This document shows, in pieces, positions 9,106-14,500 of a stretch of DNA of 41,375 nucleotides. The notes under the pieces were generated by a model. The model was not told the DNA's origin. It saw nothing but the letters and a program-made list of their open reading frames with translations, and made no database searches. The position numbers and the translations under genes are program-made. The DNA comes from an uncultured bacterium (lineage in GTDB: Bacteria > Patescibacteriota > Minisyncoccia > Phycocordibacterales > GWA1-40-21): positions 1 to 41,375 of the forward strand of contig CAIKXY010000008.1 of the NCBI GenBank assembly GCA_903831595.1, read 5' to 3'. Each line of letters opens with the position of its first letter. Position 1 is the stretch's first letter.

Positions 9106-11190
9106 TTAAATATCAATATTTGCCAATCTTGCATTTGACTGTATGAAAGCTTTTCTTGAAGGAACATCAGTTCCCATAAGCATATCAAAAATTTTGTCTG
9201 CTTCTTGTGCGTCATCAATAGAAACTCTCTTCATCATTCTTCGAGAAGGATCCATTGTTGTTTCCCAAAGTTCTTCAGCGTTCATTTCTCCCAAACCTTT
9301 ATATCTTTGAACAGCAACTTTTGGTCCTTTTTTTGTTTCAGCTTCTTCAACATTTTCCTCAACAGCAACTTCAACAGATTCTGCTTCTTCTACTTCAGTG
9401 TCAGAAATTTTTGCTTTTTTAAAGTATGCAGTTTTTTCTTCTTCAGAATAAAAATAGTGAACTTCTTTTCCAATCTTCACTTTATAAAGTGGTGGCTGAG
9501 CGATACAAATGTGTCCACCGACAATAAGCGGTTTAAAATATCTATAAAACAGAGTTAGTAATAGAGTTCGGATGTGTGCTCCGTCGACATCGGCATCAGT
9601 CGCAATAATTATTTTGTGGTATCTTAATTTTTCAATATCAAATGTATCGCCTATCGCAGCACCGAGTGCAACAACAAGATTTTTTATTTGTTCTGAATCT
9701 AGCATCTTATCAAGTCTTGCTCTTTCAACATTCAAAATTTTTCCTCGAAGTGGAAGTATTGCTTGTATTTTTCTGTCTCTTCCCATTTTTGCTGTACCTC
9801 CTGCAGAATCTCCCTCCACAATAATAAGCTCGGATTCGGAAGCATCTTTACTCTGACAATCTGCAAGCTTACCAGGCAATGTCATACCTTCAAGTGCCCC
9901 TTTTCGCAATATAGAATCCTTTGCTGCCTTGGCTGCTTTTCGGGCCTTTAGGGCCAAAATTACCTTAGAAACAATGGCTCTGGCATCATCTGGGTTCTCC
10001 TCGAGAAACGCGTTAAAAGCCTCACCAAAGACCTCTTCTACCGCGCCTCTAGCCTCTACGGAACCGAGCTTTGCTTTAGTCTGTCCTTCAAACTGTATTT
10101 CACGTAATTTTACAGAAACAACTGCTGTTAAACCTTCCAGTGCATCATCACCGGTAAAATTGTCTTCACTGTCTTTTGTAAGATTATTTTTCTTTGCATA
10201 ATTATTTAGCGAACGAGTAAGTGATGCCTTGAAACCTGTGACATGTGTTCCGCCTTCTGGGTTTTCAATATTATTTGCAAAAGCTAAAATTCTAGAAGAA
10301 ATATCGTCAACATATTGCAAAGAAATTTCTACAGATTCAACACCTGTCGCTTTTTTCTCAACATAAAAAACATTTTTATGAATTGGCTTTTGAAATTGAT
10401 TATAAAATTTTACAAGTGACAAAAGTCCACCCTCAAAACAAAATGATTGTGATGGAGCTTCTATTTCATATTCTGAAAAATAAAATATTTCTTTATCAGC
10501 AAATTTTTCTTTAACTTCTCTTGCATCAATAGCTGTGATTCTCAAACCTTTTACAAGATATGCTTGCTGTCTCATGTGAGAAACAACTCGATTGAAATCA
10601 AAAGTAATTCCCTCTTTAAATATTTCTGCATCTGGCTCAAAATTTACAACCGTTCCGTGATTTGTTGTTTTTCCTATTTTTTTAACAGCAGCTTTTACTT
10701 TTCCTTTTGAATATTCTTGCATGTAAGCAAAGCCGTCTTTGTGCACAATAACTTTCATGTAAATTGAAAGTGCGTTTACGACAGAAGCTCCGACTCCGTG
10801 AAGTCCTCCTGATGCTTTGTATCCTGTGTCTTCTCCACCAAATTTTCCACCGGCGTGAAGAACAGTCATGATTGTTTCAAGTGCAGAAACTTTCGTTTGT
10901 TTATGAATATCTACTGGAATACCTCGGCCGTTGTCTGTAATTCTTACGCGATTTCCTGGAAGTAAAACAACTTCAATATGATCACAAAAACCGTTCATCG
11001 CTTCGTCACGAGAATTGTCAAAAATCTCAGTTATAAGATGGTGTAAACCATCGGGGCCTGTTGTCCCAATATACATACCTGGACGTCTTCTGACGGGCTC
11101 TAGACCCTCAAGAACTTGAATGGAACTAGCATCATAATGACTCTCTTTTTTGATTTCTTTCTCTGTTTTTTTATCGTTAGTTTTTGCCAT
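9106..11190 (-). CDS. gyrB: DNA gyrase / type IIA topoisomerase subunit B
   Basis: ATPase subunit that powers DNA strand passage. GHKL ATP-binding motifs are intact near the N terminus (EIFDNSRDEAM, DNGRGIPVD, GGLHGVGASVVNALS), followed by the transducer and TOPRIM domain (EGDSAGG from Glu459; DADVDGAHIRT near residue 530) and the C-terminal QRYKGLGEMN motif. A Glu/Val-rich insert (about residues 590-620) sits just before that motif. 694 residues is slightly longer than Gram-positive GyrB. GyrB is preferred over ParE on overall similarity; gyrA is not in the window. Single-gene unit. Confidence 0.93.
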   Translation of the reverse strand: MAKTNDKKTEKEIKKESHYDASSIQVLEGLEPVRRRPGMYIGTTGPDGLHHLITEIFDNSRDEAMNGFCDHIEVVLLPGNRVRITDNGRGIPVDIHKQTKVSALETIMTVLHAGGKFGGEDTGYKASGGLHGVGASVVNALSIYMKVIVHKDGFAYMQEYSKGKVKAAVKKIGKTTNHGTVVNFEPDAEIFKEGITFDFNRVVSHMRQQAYLVKGLRITAIDAREVKEKFADKEIFYFSEYEIEAPSQSFCFEGGLLSLVKFYNQFQKPIHKNVFYVEKKATGVESVEISLQYVDDISSRILAFANNIENPEGGTHVTGFKASLTRSLNNYAKKNNLTKDSEDNFTGDDALEGLTAVVSVKLREIQFEGQTKAKLGSVEARGAVEEVFGEAFNAFLEENPDDARAIVSKVILALKARKAAKAAKDSILRKGALEGMTLPGKLADCQSKDASESELIIVEGDSAGGTAKMGRDRKIQAILPLRGKILNVERARLDKMLDSEQIKNLVVALGAAIGDTFDIEKLRYHKIIIATDADVDGAHIRTLLLTLFYRYFKPLIVGGHICIAQPPLYKVKIGKEVHYFYSEEEKTAYFKKAKISDTEVEEAESVEVAVEENVEEAETKKGPKVAVQRYKGLGEMNAEELWETTMDPSRRMMKRVSIDDAQEADKIFDMLMGTDVPSRKAFIQSNARLANIDI

Positions 11191-11845: not shown

Positions 11846-14215
11846 TTACCTGACCTGCCAGCCAGTCTTTTTATTCATTTTTTCAGTAATTTTAGTCATT
11901 ATTGCGTTCACTTCATCATCGGTTAATGTCCGTTCATATGACTGAAATATCAAACGATAGGCATAAGAAACTTTCTTTGCTCCATCTGGAAATGCTTTTG
12001 TGAAAACATCAAATAGTCGGCTTTTTATAACAAGCTCACCAACTTCTTTTTCTATGATTGAAAAGACCTCTTCTGACTTTGTACCTTCTGGAGTAAACAC
12101 GGCAATGTCACGAATCATAAATGGATATTGCGAAATCTTTTTGTATTTTTTATTTTTGTCCCCTACTTCCGACATAACATATTCTGTCGCTTCTGGCAAC
12201 TTTTCTAAAATTTTTACAAAATTAAATTCGGCGATGGTTTCATCTTTTGTTGCAATTTTCATTTGGACAAGATCAACATTTAATTTTTCAGAAAGAATCT
12301 TAATTGTTGCATCCAAAACTTCTTTTTCTTTTGGTTTTTTCAAACCTAGTGGATTTTTGACACCTATAACAAAATTGCTCTCTTCACCACTTTTTTTAAA
12401 TACATGACCAAATTCAAATATTTTTATTTGTGGCATATCAACAAGCTCGGAATATCTTGCATTAAATCCCAAACAATTTTTTAATCCATCAGAAAGATTG
12501 GTTCTCAAAAACTTTCTTTCAGGAGACAACGGATTTATTAATTCTACTTCACCTTTATCAGTAAAAGAATAATTTATTACTTCAGAATATCCTTCTTCAT
12601 AAAGAATTCTTCTAATTTTTTCTTTATAAGCAAAGCCTTTTTCTATTTTAACTTCAACATTATTTTTAGGAATAGAAATATCTTTGATTTTATCATAACC
12701 ATAAACTCTACCGATTTCTTCTGCTAAATCTTCTTTGATTCTCAAATCGAGTCTTTCATCTGGAACTGTAATAACAAATCTTTCTTCATTATCACACATT
12801 CTTCTGTATCCTACTGTATTTTTAAATCTCTCACTTTTATCTAGATCCTCAATTACTACTTTATTAAAAAGCATTGTTGCATGTATCACTTTTCCATTAC
12901 CGAGATATAAACCACAGTGATCAACTCCCTCAGGTACTTTTGTACCAGTTAAAAAATCTAAAGACTCATAAAAAATATGACCAACACCTGCATTTGCATA
13001 TATTACATCTCCCGCAATTAAATCTTTTTCTTCAATTTTTTTACCAAATACATATTGATCAACTGATATTCTAGGAATCTGAACACCGCCCTGCGTAAAA
13101 AGATAACTTACAAAACCTGAACAATCAAACATTTTTGGTGCATCATAAGATATACTAGCGCCAAGTTTATATGGTGTTCCAACTAAGGTTTGCGCAATTT
13201 TTAAAACTTCATCTATAGGTTTAACTTTCTTCCATTCAAAACCAAATCTATCAAATATTTTTTCTATATCTGAATCTTTAATTTCAACACCAATTATTGA
13301 ACTGGCTTCCTTTGCAGAAATGCCAAGTTTAAATTTATTTGGTTTTTTAGGATAATTATCTATTACCTCGCCAACTTTTGTATCCTTTGTTCCTGCGATT
13401 TCAACAATAAGTTTTGTAAGGATATCCATTGCTTCACCTGCGATTTCAGATGAAAAATCATTTTCGTATCGCTTTGAAGCATCTGTTTGAATTTTTAATC
13501 TTTGAGAAGTCTTTCTTATTTGGACAGCATCAAAACTTGCTGATTCAAGAATTATATTCTTTGTGCCGATTTCAAGCTCTGCAAAATTGCCACCTTTAAT
13601 ACCTGCAATTGCCAAAGGATTTTCTCCATCTGTAATAAGCAAGACGTTTTCATCAAGTTCAACGTCTTTTTTATCAAGAGTAATTATTCTCTGCCCTTTT
13701 TGCGCATTTTTTACAACAATTTCATTTCCAATTTTATCAGAATCAAAAGCGTGCATTGGTTGACCGATTTCAAGCATAATAAAATTCGTGGCATCAACAA
13801 TATTATTTATTGAGCGTTGGCCAAGTGTCTCTAATTTATCAGCTAACCATTTTGGCGCTGGCCCAACTTTAATGTTTTCAACTACCCTACCGATATATCT
13901 TTTACACAACTTTCCATCATCAATTTTTACAGAAAGTTTTTTTGAAGTTTTTGAAACAGAAAAATCTTTAAATTCTCTAGAGTATAAATTTGATTTAATA
14001 CCAGCCAAAACTGAAACCTCGCGAGCAATACCTCTGTGACATAAACAGCTATGATTTAGATTTGGTGTAGTCTTTGCATCCATTACTATATCAGACCCAA
14101 ATTTTTCTAGACCTTCAACCTCCATTGAGTGCATAGTCAAAAGCTCAGAAATTTTTTCTGGTTTTGGCGCTTTGCCTTTAAAATATTCATTTAGCCAATT
14201 ATATGAGACTTTCAT
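11846..14215 (-). CDS. pheT: Phenylalanine-tRNA ligase beta subunit with inserted NlpC/P60 domain
   Basis: Beta subunit of the alpha2-beta2 enzyme that charges tRNA-Phe. The 789 residues lack the N-terminal EMAPII-like tRNA-binding domain: the chain goes from MEVEGLEKFG straight to TTPNLNHSCLCHRGIAREV. The B3/B4 editing domain follows (LEIGQPMHAFDSD near 155). The B5 domain starts at about 295 (KFKLGISAKEASSIIGVEI) and is interrupted after FGFEWKK (about 330) by about 145 residues of NlpC/P60 peptidase. It then resumes at ERFVITVPDERLDLR (about 478) and IGRVYGYDKI. The catalytic-like core and C-terminal anticodon-binding (FDX-ACB) domain (about 695-789) complete the chain. Removing the insert leaves about 645 residues, normal for a short PheT. 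Start 4 nt behind the SemiSWEET gene. Confidence 0.93.
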   Translation of the reverse strand: MKVSYNWLNEYFKGKAPKPEKISELLTMHSMEVEGLEKFGSDIVMDAKTTPNLNHSCLCHRGIAREVSVLAGIKSNLYSREFKDFSVSKTSKKLSVKIDDGKLCKRYIGRVVENIKVGPAPKWLADKLETLGQRSINNIVDATNFIMLEIGQPMHAFDSDKIGNEIVVKNAQKGQRIITLDKKDVELDENVLLITDGENPLAIAGIKGGNFAELEIGTKNIILESASFDAVQIRKTSQRLKIQTDASKRYENDFSSEIAGEAMDILTKLIVEIAGTKDTKVGEVIDNYPKKPNKFKLGISAKEASSIIGVEIKDSDIEKIFDRFGFEWKKVKPIDEVLKIAQTLVGTPYKLGASISYDAPKMFDCSGFVSYLFTQGGVQIPRISVDQYVFGKKIEEKDLIAGDVIYANAGVGHIFYESLDFLTGTKVPEGVDHCGLYLGNGKVIHATMLFNKVVIEDLDKSERFKNTVGYRRMCDNEERFVITVPDERLDLRIKEDLAEEIGRVYGYDKIKDISIPKNNVEVKIEKGFAYKEKIRRILYEEGYSEVINYSFTDKGEVELINPLSPERKFLRTNLSDGLKNCLGFNARYSELVDMPQIKIFEFGHVFKKSGEESNFVIGVKNPLGLKKPKEKEVLDATIKILSEKLNVDLVQMKIATKDETIAEFNFVKILEKLPEATEYVMSEVGDKNKKYKKISQYPFMIRDIAVFTPEGTKSEEVFSIIEKEVGELVIKSRLFDVFTKAFPDGAKKVSYAYRLIFQSYERTLTDDEVNAIMTKITEKMNKKTGWQVR
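12785..13225 (-). other. NlpC/P60 (C40) peptidase domain inserted in PheT B5
   Basis: Residues about 331-477 of PheT. Visible marks of C40 peptidases: IAQTLVGTPYKLGA, the nucleophile DCSGFVSYLF (Cys365, codon 13121-13123), PRISVDQY, DLIAGDVIYA, then VDHCGLYLGNGKVIHA with His433 and a third polar residue His445. The catalytic Cys-His-His set looks complete. Both flanks are ordinary B5 sequence and the frame is open throughout. Known C40 enzymes cut peptidoglycan stem peptides or act on amides; a role inside a cytoplasmic synthetase is not predicted by the family. Confidence 0.92.
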
Positions 14216-14218
14216 GGA

Positions 14219-14500
14219 TTAATTATTTTTACGATATATATAAATCTGATACAGAATAACACCAGTGGTTATTATTCCTAAACCCTGGCCTAAATAAACC
14301 ACTGCGTCATTTACAAGGATTCCATGTAATGTCCAAAAAACATATGTGATAAAAGAAAGAATATAAAAAGTATTTGAAATACCTTTAGTAGATTTCCTTT
14401 CATAATTTTTTTTCATTTGATCTGGAAAACCAATAACCTTTATCAATATGGTCAGTACTGTTGTAATTATTCCAATAATAACAATTAATTCTACTTTCAT
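14219..14500 (-). CDS. SemiSWEET/PQ-loop-like membrane transporter
   Basis: 93 residues with three membrane segments (about 4-22, 43-62, 67-86) in the single three-helix-bundle form of SemiSWEET proteins. The family-like loop GFPDQMKKNYERKSTKGIS follows helix 1, and a W-LHG turn (WTLHGILVNDA) closes helix 2. SemiSWEETs dimerise to move small sugars; the substrate here is not known. It sits between pheS (4 nt) and pheT (3 nt), an unusual place for a transporter, and must share their transcript. Confidence 0.75.
   Translation of the reverse strand: MKVELIVIIGIITTVLTILIKVIGFPDQMKKNYERKSTKGISNTFYILSFITYVFWTLHGILVNDAVVYLGQGLGIITTGVILYQIYIYRKNN

Follow-up and report, generated by a model that had tools for sequence, protein, structure and literature searches.

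An NlpC/P60 cysteine peptidase domain within the B5 domain of phenylalanyl-tRNA synthetase in Patescibacteria

The beta subunit of phenylalanyl-tRNA synthetase (PheT) encoded in a 41,375-nucleotide stretch of DNA from an uncultured patescibacterium (contig CAIKXY010000008.1, hereafter the window) carries a complete NlpC/P60 (C40) cysteine peptidase domain inside its B5 domain. We consider it probable, at roughly 0.6, that this PheT carries an autonomous cytoplasmic cysteine hydrolase that acts on a peptide or amide substrate and works with a C39-like protein. B5-C40 looks like a genuine enzyme of the cytoplasm and no accident, because its triad is intact, a cell usually has no other NlpC/P60 enzyme and the unit outlives PheT.

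Anatomy of the embedded domain

The window PheT scores 442 bits against the NCBIfam pheT_bact model (cut-off 403), and Pfam matches all of B3_4, NLPC_P60, B5, CLM and FDX-ACB in it (Table 1). With bacterial PheRS beta subunits in general it shares the B3/4, B5, CLM and FDX-ACB domains, the editing residues and an operon with pheS, but it differs from them by a 143-residue enzyme within B5 and by a shorter N-terminus, the usual N-terminal tRNA-binding domain being absent. The accompanying PheS is also short, corresponding approximately to the class II core alone, and a gene for a 93-aa SemiSWEET/PQ-loop-like membrane protein (MtN3_slv; 14219-14500, − strand) lies between pheS and pheT in this 726-kb genome.

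Table 1. Features of the pheT locus, in window coordinates
Feature	Position	Strand	Basis and remarks
gyrB	9106..11190	−	by eye from sequence; downstream neighbour, conserved with or without insert
C39-like cysteine peptidase, 189 aa	11265..11834	−	Pfam PF13529; next gene after pheT
pheT, phenylalanyl-tRNA synthetase beta subunit with embedded C40	11846..14215	−	single 789-aa frame; TIGR00472 above cut-off
Split B5, C-terminal half, residues 475-507	12695..12793	−	Pfam PF03484 best stretch
Insert, residues 332-474 (143 aa)	12794..13222	−	alignment with insertless PheTs; restricted to insert-bearing PheTs
NlpC/P60 (C40) domain, residues 346-472	12800..13180	−	Pfam PF00877, fold model, Foldseek
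His445, third triad residue	12881..12883	−	His in 79/85, D/E/N/Q in 6/85 units
His433, predicted catalytic base	12917..12919	−	invariant in 85/85 units
Cys365, predicted catalytic nucleophile	13121..13123	−	invariant in 85/85 units
Split B5, N-terminal half, residues 293-331	13223..13339	−	alignment; model secondary structure E-H-H-E
B3/4 editing domain, residues 104-275	13391..13906	−	Pfam PF03483; editing residues intact
pheS, alpha subunit, 254 aa	14505..15269	−	Pfam PF01409; upstream of pheT, same direction

A first, sequence-only reading of the window had located extra residues at a beta turn of B5, in the interval 12785-13225 (residues 331-477), and assigned them a full C40 triad. Alignment with insertless relatives bears out the position, the insert occupying the turn of the B5 hairpin between FEWKK and DNEERFVITVP, so that the interval was right to within a few residues; Cys365, His433 and His445 likewise stand, with their codons where that reading implied, and the third triad residue is polar in 85/85 units. 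The NLPC_P60 match scores 66 bits (cut-off 23; E 3.4e-18), and in an AlphaFold2 model the insert adopts a papain-like alpha+beta fold with pLDDT of ~89-97; the model of full PheT has good local and poor inter-domain confidence (pTM 0.66). Foldseek matches the insert fold to 7cfl_A (E 9e-11, target TM 0.86), and a PDB search returns the peptidoglycan endopeptidases 7cfl, MepS and YkfC (3h41) as its closest solved relatives. Pfam and PDB searches identify NlpC/P60 only, with none of the known editing folds (YbaK, AlaX, CP1 or D-aminoacyl deacylase types) in the insert.

Several other origins or identities were considered and set aside. Pfam finds no Hint domain, and the catalytic Cys is 33 residues into the insert, which argues against an intein. 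Dozens of distinct genomes from different studies, the complete chromosome CP011215.1 among them, carry the fusion as a single open frame, which contradicts an assembly chimera. Relatives of the insert on phage or viral contigs are just ~23-38% identical, none of them close, which speaks against a phage origin of the fusion, and PADLOC gives no match for C40 as part of a defence system. A search of 5.39 million open-access papers yielded no description of NlpC/P60 in PheT or in another synthetase, in line with the first reading, which knew of no characterised case.

Distribution of fused and free B5-C40

The same insert was found at the same point in 16 of 59 relatives searched. Across the 247 genomes of the order, a survey with a B5-C40 profile detects the unit in 63: 48 have a full-length fused PheT, one has a frame truncated where its contig ends and 15 have a standalone gene, one genome having both. 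In a genome scan built on a 5-row alignment, named carriers are found among the Yonath-, Campbell-, Zambryski-, Nomura-, Lloyd- and Vogelbacteria, in addition to the complete chromosome mentioned above. Phylum-wide, B5-C40 is matched in 26/381 genomes, in some weakly, and another class contains a second set of fusions, in which PheTs of 929-970 aa carry C40 at the same B5 turn.

Gain and loss of the insert could be mapped across relatives, as the sequence-only reading had proposed. In a PheT tree calculated without the insert, the fusions of the order form one group of 62 rows, within which nine insertless PheTs are nested, and the second set stands apart. The simplest reading of the tree is a single gain in the order and several losses, including some in the window's own genus (G004, L019); in L019 the insert is lost precisely and PheT is still full-length. 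The second-class fusions may reflect an independent gain, a transfer or an older state shared by both. The B5-C40 unit is missing from the majority of the order's genomes and is thus dispensable, a point that weighs against the favoured hydrolase reading.

Standalone B5-C40 genes, such as that at L041 4564-5241, encode proteins of 207-257 aa with B5-like flanks on either side of C40 and no visible signal peptide. They occur in 14-15 genomes within the order; six genomes outside it have them at full or almost full length. A model of a standalone protein (pLDDT 95.9) has the order E-H-H-E, then C40, then E-H, as in the PheT model; its best 50 Foldseek matches are C40 structures only, so that the assignment of the flanks to B5 rests on alignment and on the order of secondary structure elements. 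Seven standalones (G263, G620, G483, G544, G596, G537 and G576) abut a gene for a monomeric, mitochondrial-type PheS-FDXACB, which has replaced PheS/PheT, with gyrB close by in most of the seven, like the usual pheST locus; in a tree of the units, the standalones beside monomeric PheRS are scattered among the fused forms of the order, in two or more places. Two genomes (G519, G554) combine an insertless PheT with a B5-C40 unit elsewhere. Another group of standalones, the S clade, is present within the order (G004, G042, G024, G499) and outside it (G074, G338, G350, G335, G444, G302), and five of these six extra-order genomes, which show an FDX-ACB match only, probably have a monomeric PheRS.

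The surroundings of the free genes vary. Two S-type loci from two families (L135, L138) adjoin dcd or other dNTP genes (dCTP deaminase/thymidylate synthase/DHFR-type; names assigned by eye), and two from one genus (L137, L139) directly follow gyrA (also named by eye); FtsI/MraY-like genes are found close to a further two standalone units, which are related. Monomeric mitochondrial-type PheRS itself (PheS core plus FDX-ACB, ~380-430 aa; for example L041 5241-6392 and L145 1142-2338) is found in ~48/247 genomes of the order and often occupies the old pheST-gyrB locus. A shorter and differently arranged 146-aa C40 protein without B5 flanks is encoded beside a PheS-like gene in G522 (L155, 593-1030).

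To judge from these sequences, the functional and evolutionary unit is B5 with C40 inside, and it has left PheT more than once; the retention of B5 together with C40 suggests that both parts matter. B5 is reportedly uninvolved in aminoacylation, yet DNA-binding (PMC10880493).

The embedded domain is under purifying selection. Cys365 and His433 do not vary, and in close pairs the insert has a dN/dS of 0.04-0.17, a range matching that of the remaining PheT; purifying selection and decay of the triad in relatives had both been named as points to check, and no decay was found across the 85 units. NlpC/P60 domains other than the insert are not found in 31/34 fused genomes, and the family is absent altogether in 25/30 insertless ones. 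One possibility raised at the outset was a selfish insertion; such an in-frame addition to a tolerant surface loop, whether selfish or neutral, would fit the patchy distribution, the permissive hairpin at the insertion site and the full-length PheT left by the precise loss in L019; it is nonetheless extremely unlikely, given a triad invariant across deep divergence, the purifying selection on the insert and the persistence of the unit as a free gene once PheT is gone, and no self-propagating element was seen.

The C39-like neighbour and a possible link to PheRS

The gene that follows pheT in the window encodes a protein of the Peptidase_C39_2 type in which Gln10, Cys24 and His136 are invariant. 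Like other members of that family it is a papain-like Cys-His enzyme, but in its subgroup no signal peptide is visible and the gene lies beside that for PheT-C40. Among the order's loci with sufficient flanking sequence, a C39-like gene lies downstream of pheT in 37/51 fused loci versus 0/31 insertless loci, usually within ~120 bp and frequently overlapping, and the gene order is pheS-pheT-gyrB in the absence of the insert and mostly pheS-pheT(C40)-C39-gyrB in its presence. Genome-wide, 34 of the 36 strong C39-like matches belong to unit-bearing genomes; of the two exceptions, G030 has a contig end where pheT is expected and G526 is real. In the latter (L200, 6378-8808), an insertless PheT of 630 aa is followed by a C39-like gene, the sole clear C39 without a C40 unit. 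With phylogeny allowed for, the C40-C39 link is not significant, two to three of five independent pairs agreeing with it and none opposing it, and C39 is absent beside group-2 fusions and S-type standalones in the loci checked. A link to gyrase was also considered; gyrB is adjacent regardless of the insert, and its presence is therefore background synteny.

The location of the domain within PheRS raised the early suggestion of an added editing module, hydrolysing mischarged tRNA or aminoacyl adducts. Cys-His enzymes are able to cleave esters, and some units lie beside genes for monomeric PheRS, which is too small for a B3/4 domain. However, the B3/4 editing residues (equivalents of E. coli H265, G318, E334, T354 and A356) are retained about equally in PheTs with and without the insert, so that editing is unsupported and compensation for a lost editing site can be rejected; moreover, 40/48 genomes matching monomeric PheRS have no B5-C40 or C40 unit, and units are also present away from PheRS genes. 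The editing proposal accordingly fared poorly, and we regard it as improbable. A regulatory protease, also suggested by the first reading, is conceivable.

A different coupling to PheRS, in which the hydrolase releases phenylalanine from peptides close to the synthetase or acts as a sensor or regulator of PheRS activity, with the C39-like protein helping, is made possible by the fusions and by the seven neighbours of monomeric PheRS. The fusion to PheT is found in two classes, and the seven standalones adjoin monomeric PheRS where no PheT fusion was found; by staying beside pheS, they could have a PheRS-specific job after all. Small, host-dependent genomes such as these probably belong to amino-acid auxotrophs. 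There is also a precedent in Mycoplasma penetrans, whose MetRS carries an aminotransferase domain capable of providing the synthetase with methionine (PMC7694997). Against such a role, other units lie beside gyrA, dcd/thyA-type or FtsI/MraY-type genes, in genomes whose PheRS is ordinary or monomeric, and the unit is absent from many relatives whose PheRS is the same. We judge it quite unlikely, and continue to favour an autonomous cytoplasmic hydrolase carried by PheT.

Substrate pocket and proposed role

The insert shares its fold and a Cys-His-polar triad, and probably most of the S1 pocket, with the C40 endopeptidases Acd24020 (7cfl, a C. difficile autolysin), MepS, CwlO and YkfC; whereas those are secreted, lipoproteins or, in the case of YkfC, SH3b-linked, the insert sits in the B5 domain of PheT, and Pfam detects no SH3b domain in the window protein. 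The gamma-D-Glu (S1) pocket of YkfC includes Tyr226, Asp237 and Ser239 (PMC2954226), and Asp256 and the SH3b domain serve the free N-terminal L-Ala. Equivalents of Tyr226 and Ser239 are nearly always retained in the units and that of Asp237 mostly, but unlike YkfC the insert has neither Asp256 nor a conserved Trp228: the Asp256 position is Ile383 in the window and carries an acidic residue in none of the counted units. In one subclade, represented by L160, L161, L162, L078, L080 and L081 and by the standalones L077, L079, L150, L151 and L154, Asp237 is replaced by Ser, mostly together with an Arg255 to Ser change and the dipeptide N-P preceding the conserved Ser, and the catalytic Cys and His are kept, suggesting a changed substrate. 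Because Tyr226 and Ser239 are kept, Trp228 and Asp256 are not and a subclade is remodelled, the pocket pattern suggests an amide- or peptide-bond hydrolase with altered specificity.

A special case of this reading, whose probability overlaps with that of the whole, is the cytoplasmic recycling of murein peptides by YkfC-like cleavage after gamma-D-Glu. The closest solved relatives are peptidoglycan hydrolases, several of the YkfC pocket residues are retained, and the two standalones near FtsI/MraY-like genes are consistent with it; recycling of the YkfC type also exists in another host-bound, murein-poor bacterium (PMC9928106). On the other hand, the loss of Trp228 and Asp256, the subclade in which Ser replaces both Asp237 and Arg255 and, together with these changes, Pro replaces Ala229, and the missing SH3b domain all count against it. 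In addition, 18/52 unit-bearing genomes have no recognisable MurC, several of them rated ~100% complete, so that turnover of the cell's own murein cannot be the general job. Overall, murein recycling seems unlikely.

In the mechanism that we propose, the insert would be a functional papain-like NlpC/P60 cysteine hydrolase acting in the cytoplasm as part of B5-C40, with Cys365, His433 and His445 attacking an amide or peptide bond, presumably of a small peptide or a protein. B5-C40 would share a pathway with the C39-like peptidase of the next gene, and PheT would serve as host and scaffold, B5 perhaps contributing a scaffold or nucleic-acid-binding function; aminoacylation and the B3/4 editing site would be unchanged, the hydrolase being unnecessary for either. 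The most likely job for such an enzyme, which we put forward tentatively, may be to salvage or turn over peptides that are imported or of the cell-wall type. More speculatively, B5-C40 and the C39-like protein might form a two-enzyme hydrolase system of the patescibacterial cytoplasm that has not been described before. It would have arisen within PheRS and still be functionally tied to it, for example through release of Phe from imported peptides beside the synthetase or control of translation by proteolysis, B5 being an arm that binds nucleic acid or a partner; this is conceivable but rather doubtful.

Synthetases with an embedded enzyme domain are known as a kind. The CP1 editing domains of Ile/Val/LeuRS, the INS domain of ProRS and the aminotransferase domain of M. 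penetrans MetRS are likewise additions to a synthetase; to our knowledge none of them is a papain-like peptidase, and in contrast to them the added domain described here, together with the host subdomain B5, repeatedly becomes a gene of its own. A peptidase domain is thus surprising, and its history unusual.

In summary, a papain-like peptidase with a conserved triad, often without another family member in the same cell, is an unexpected component of an essential translation enzyme. The poorly understood B5 domain gains a test case from a unit, B5 plus C40, that evolution has repeatedly excised and kept, and the C40 and C39-like proteins constitute a testable enzyme pair in ultra-small bacteria whose metabolism is mostly obscure. 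The case also cautions that the annotation of a housekeeping gene can conceal extra enzymes.
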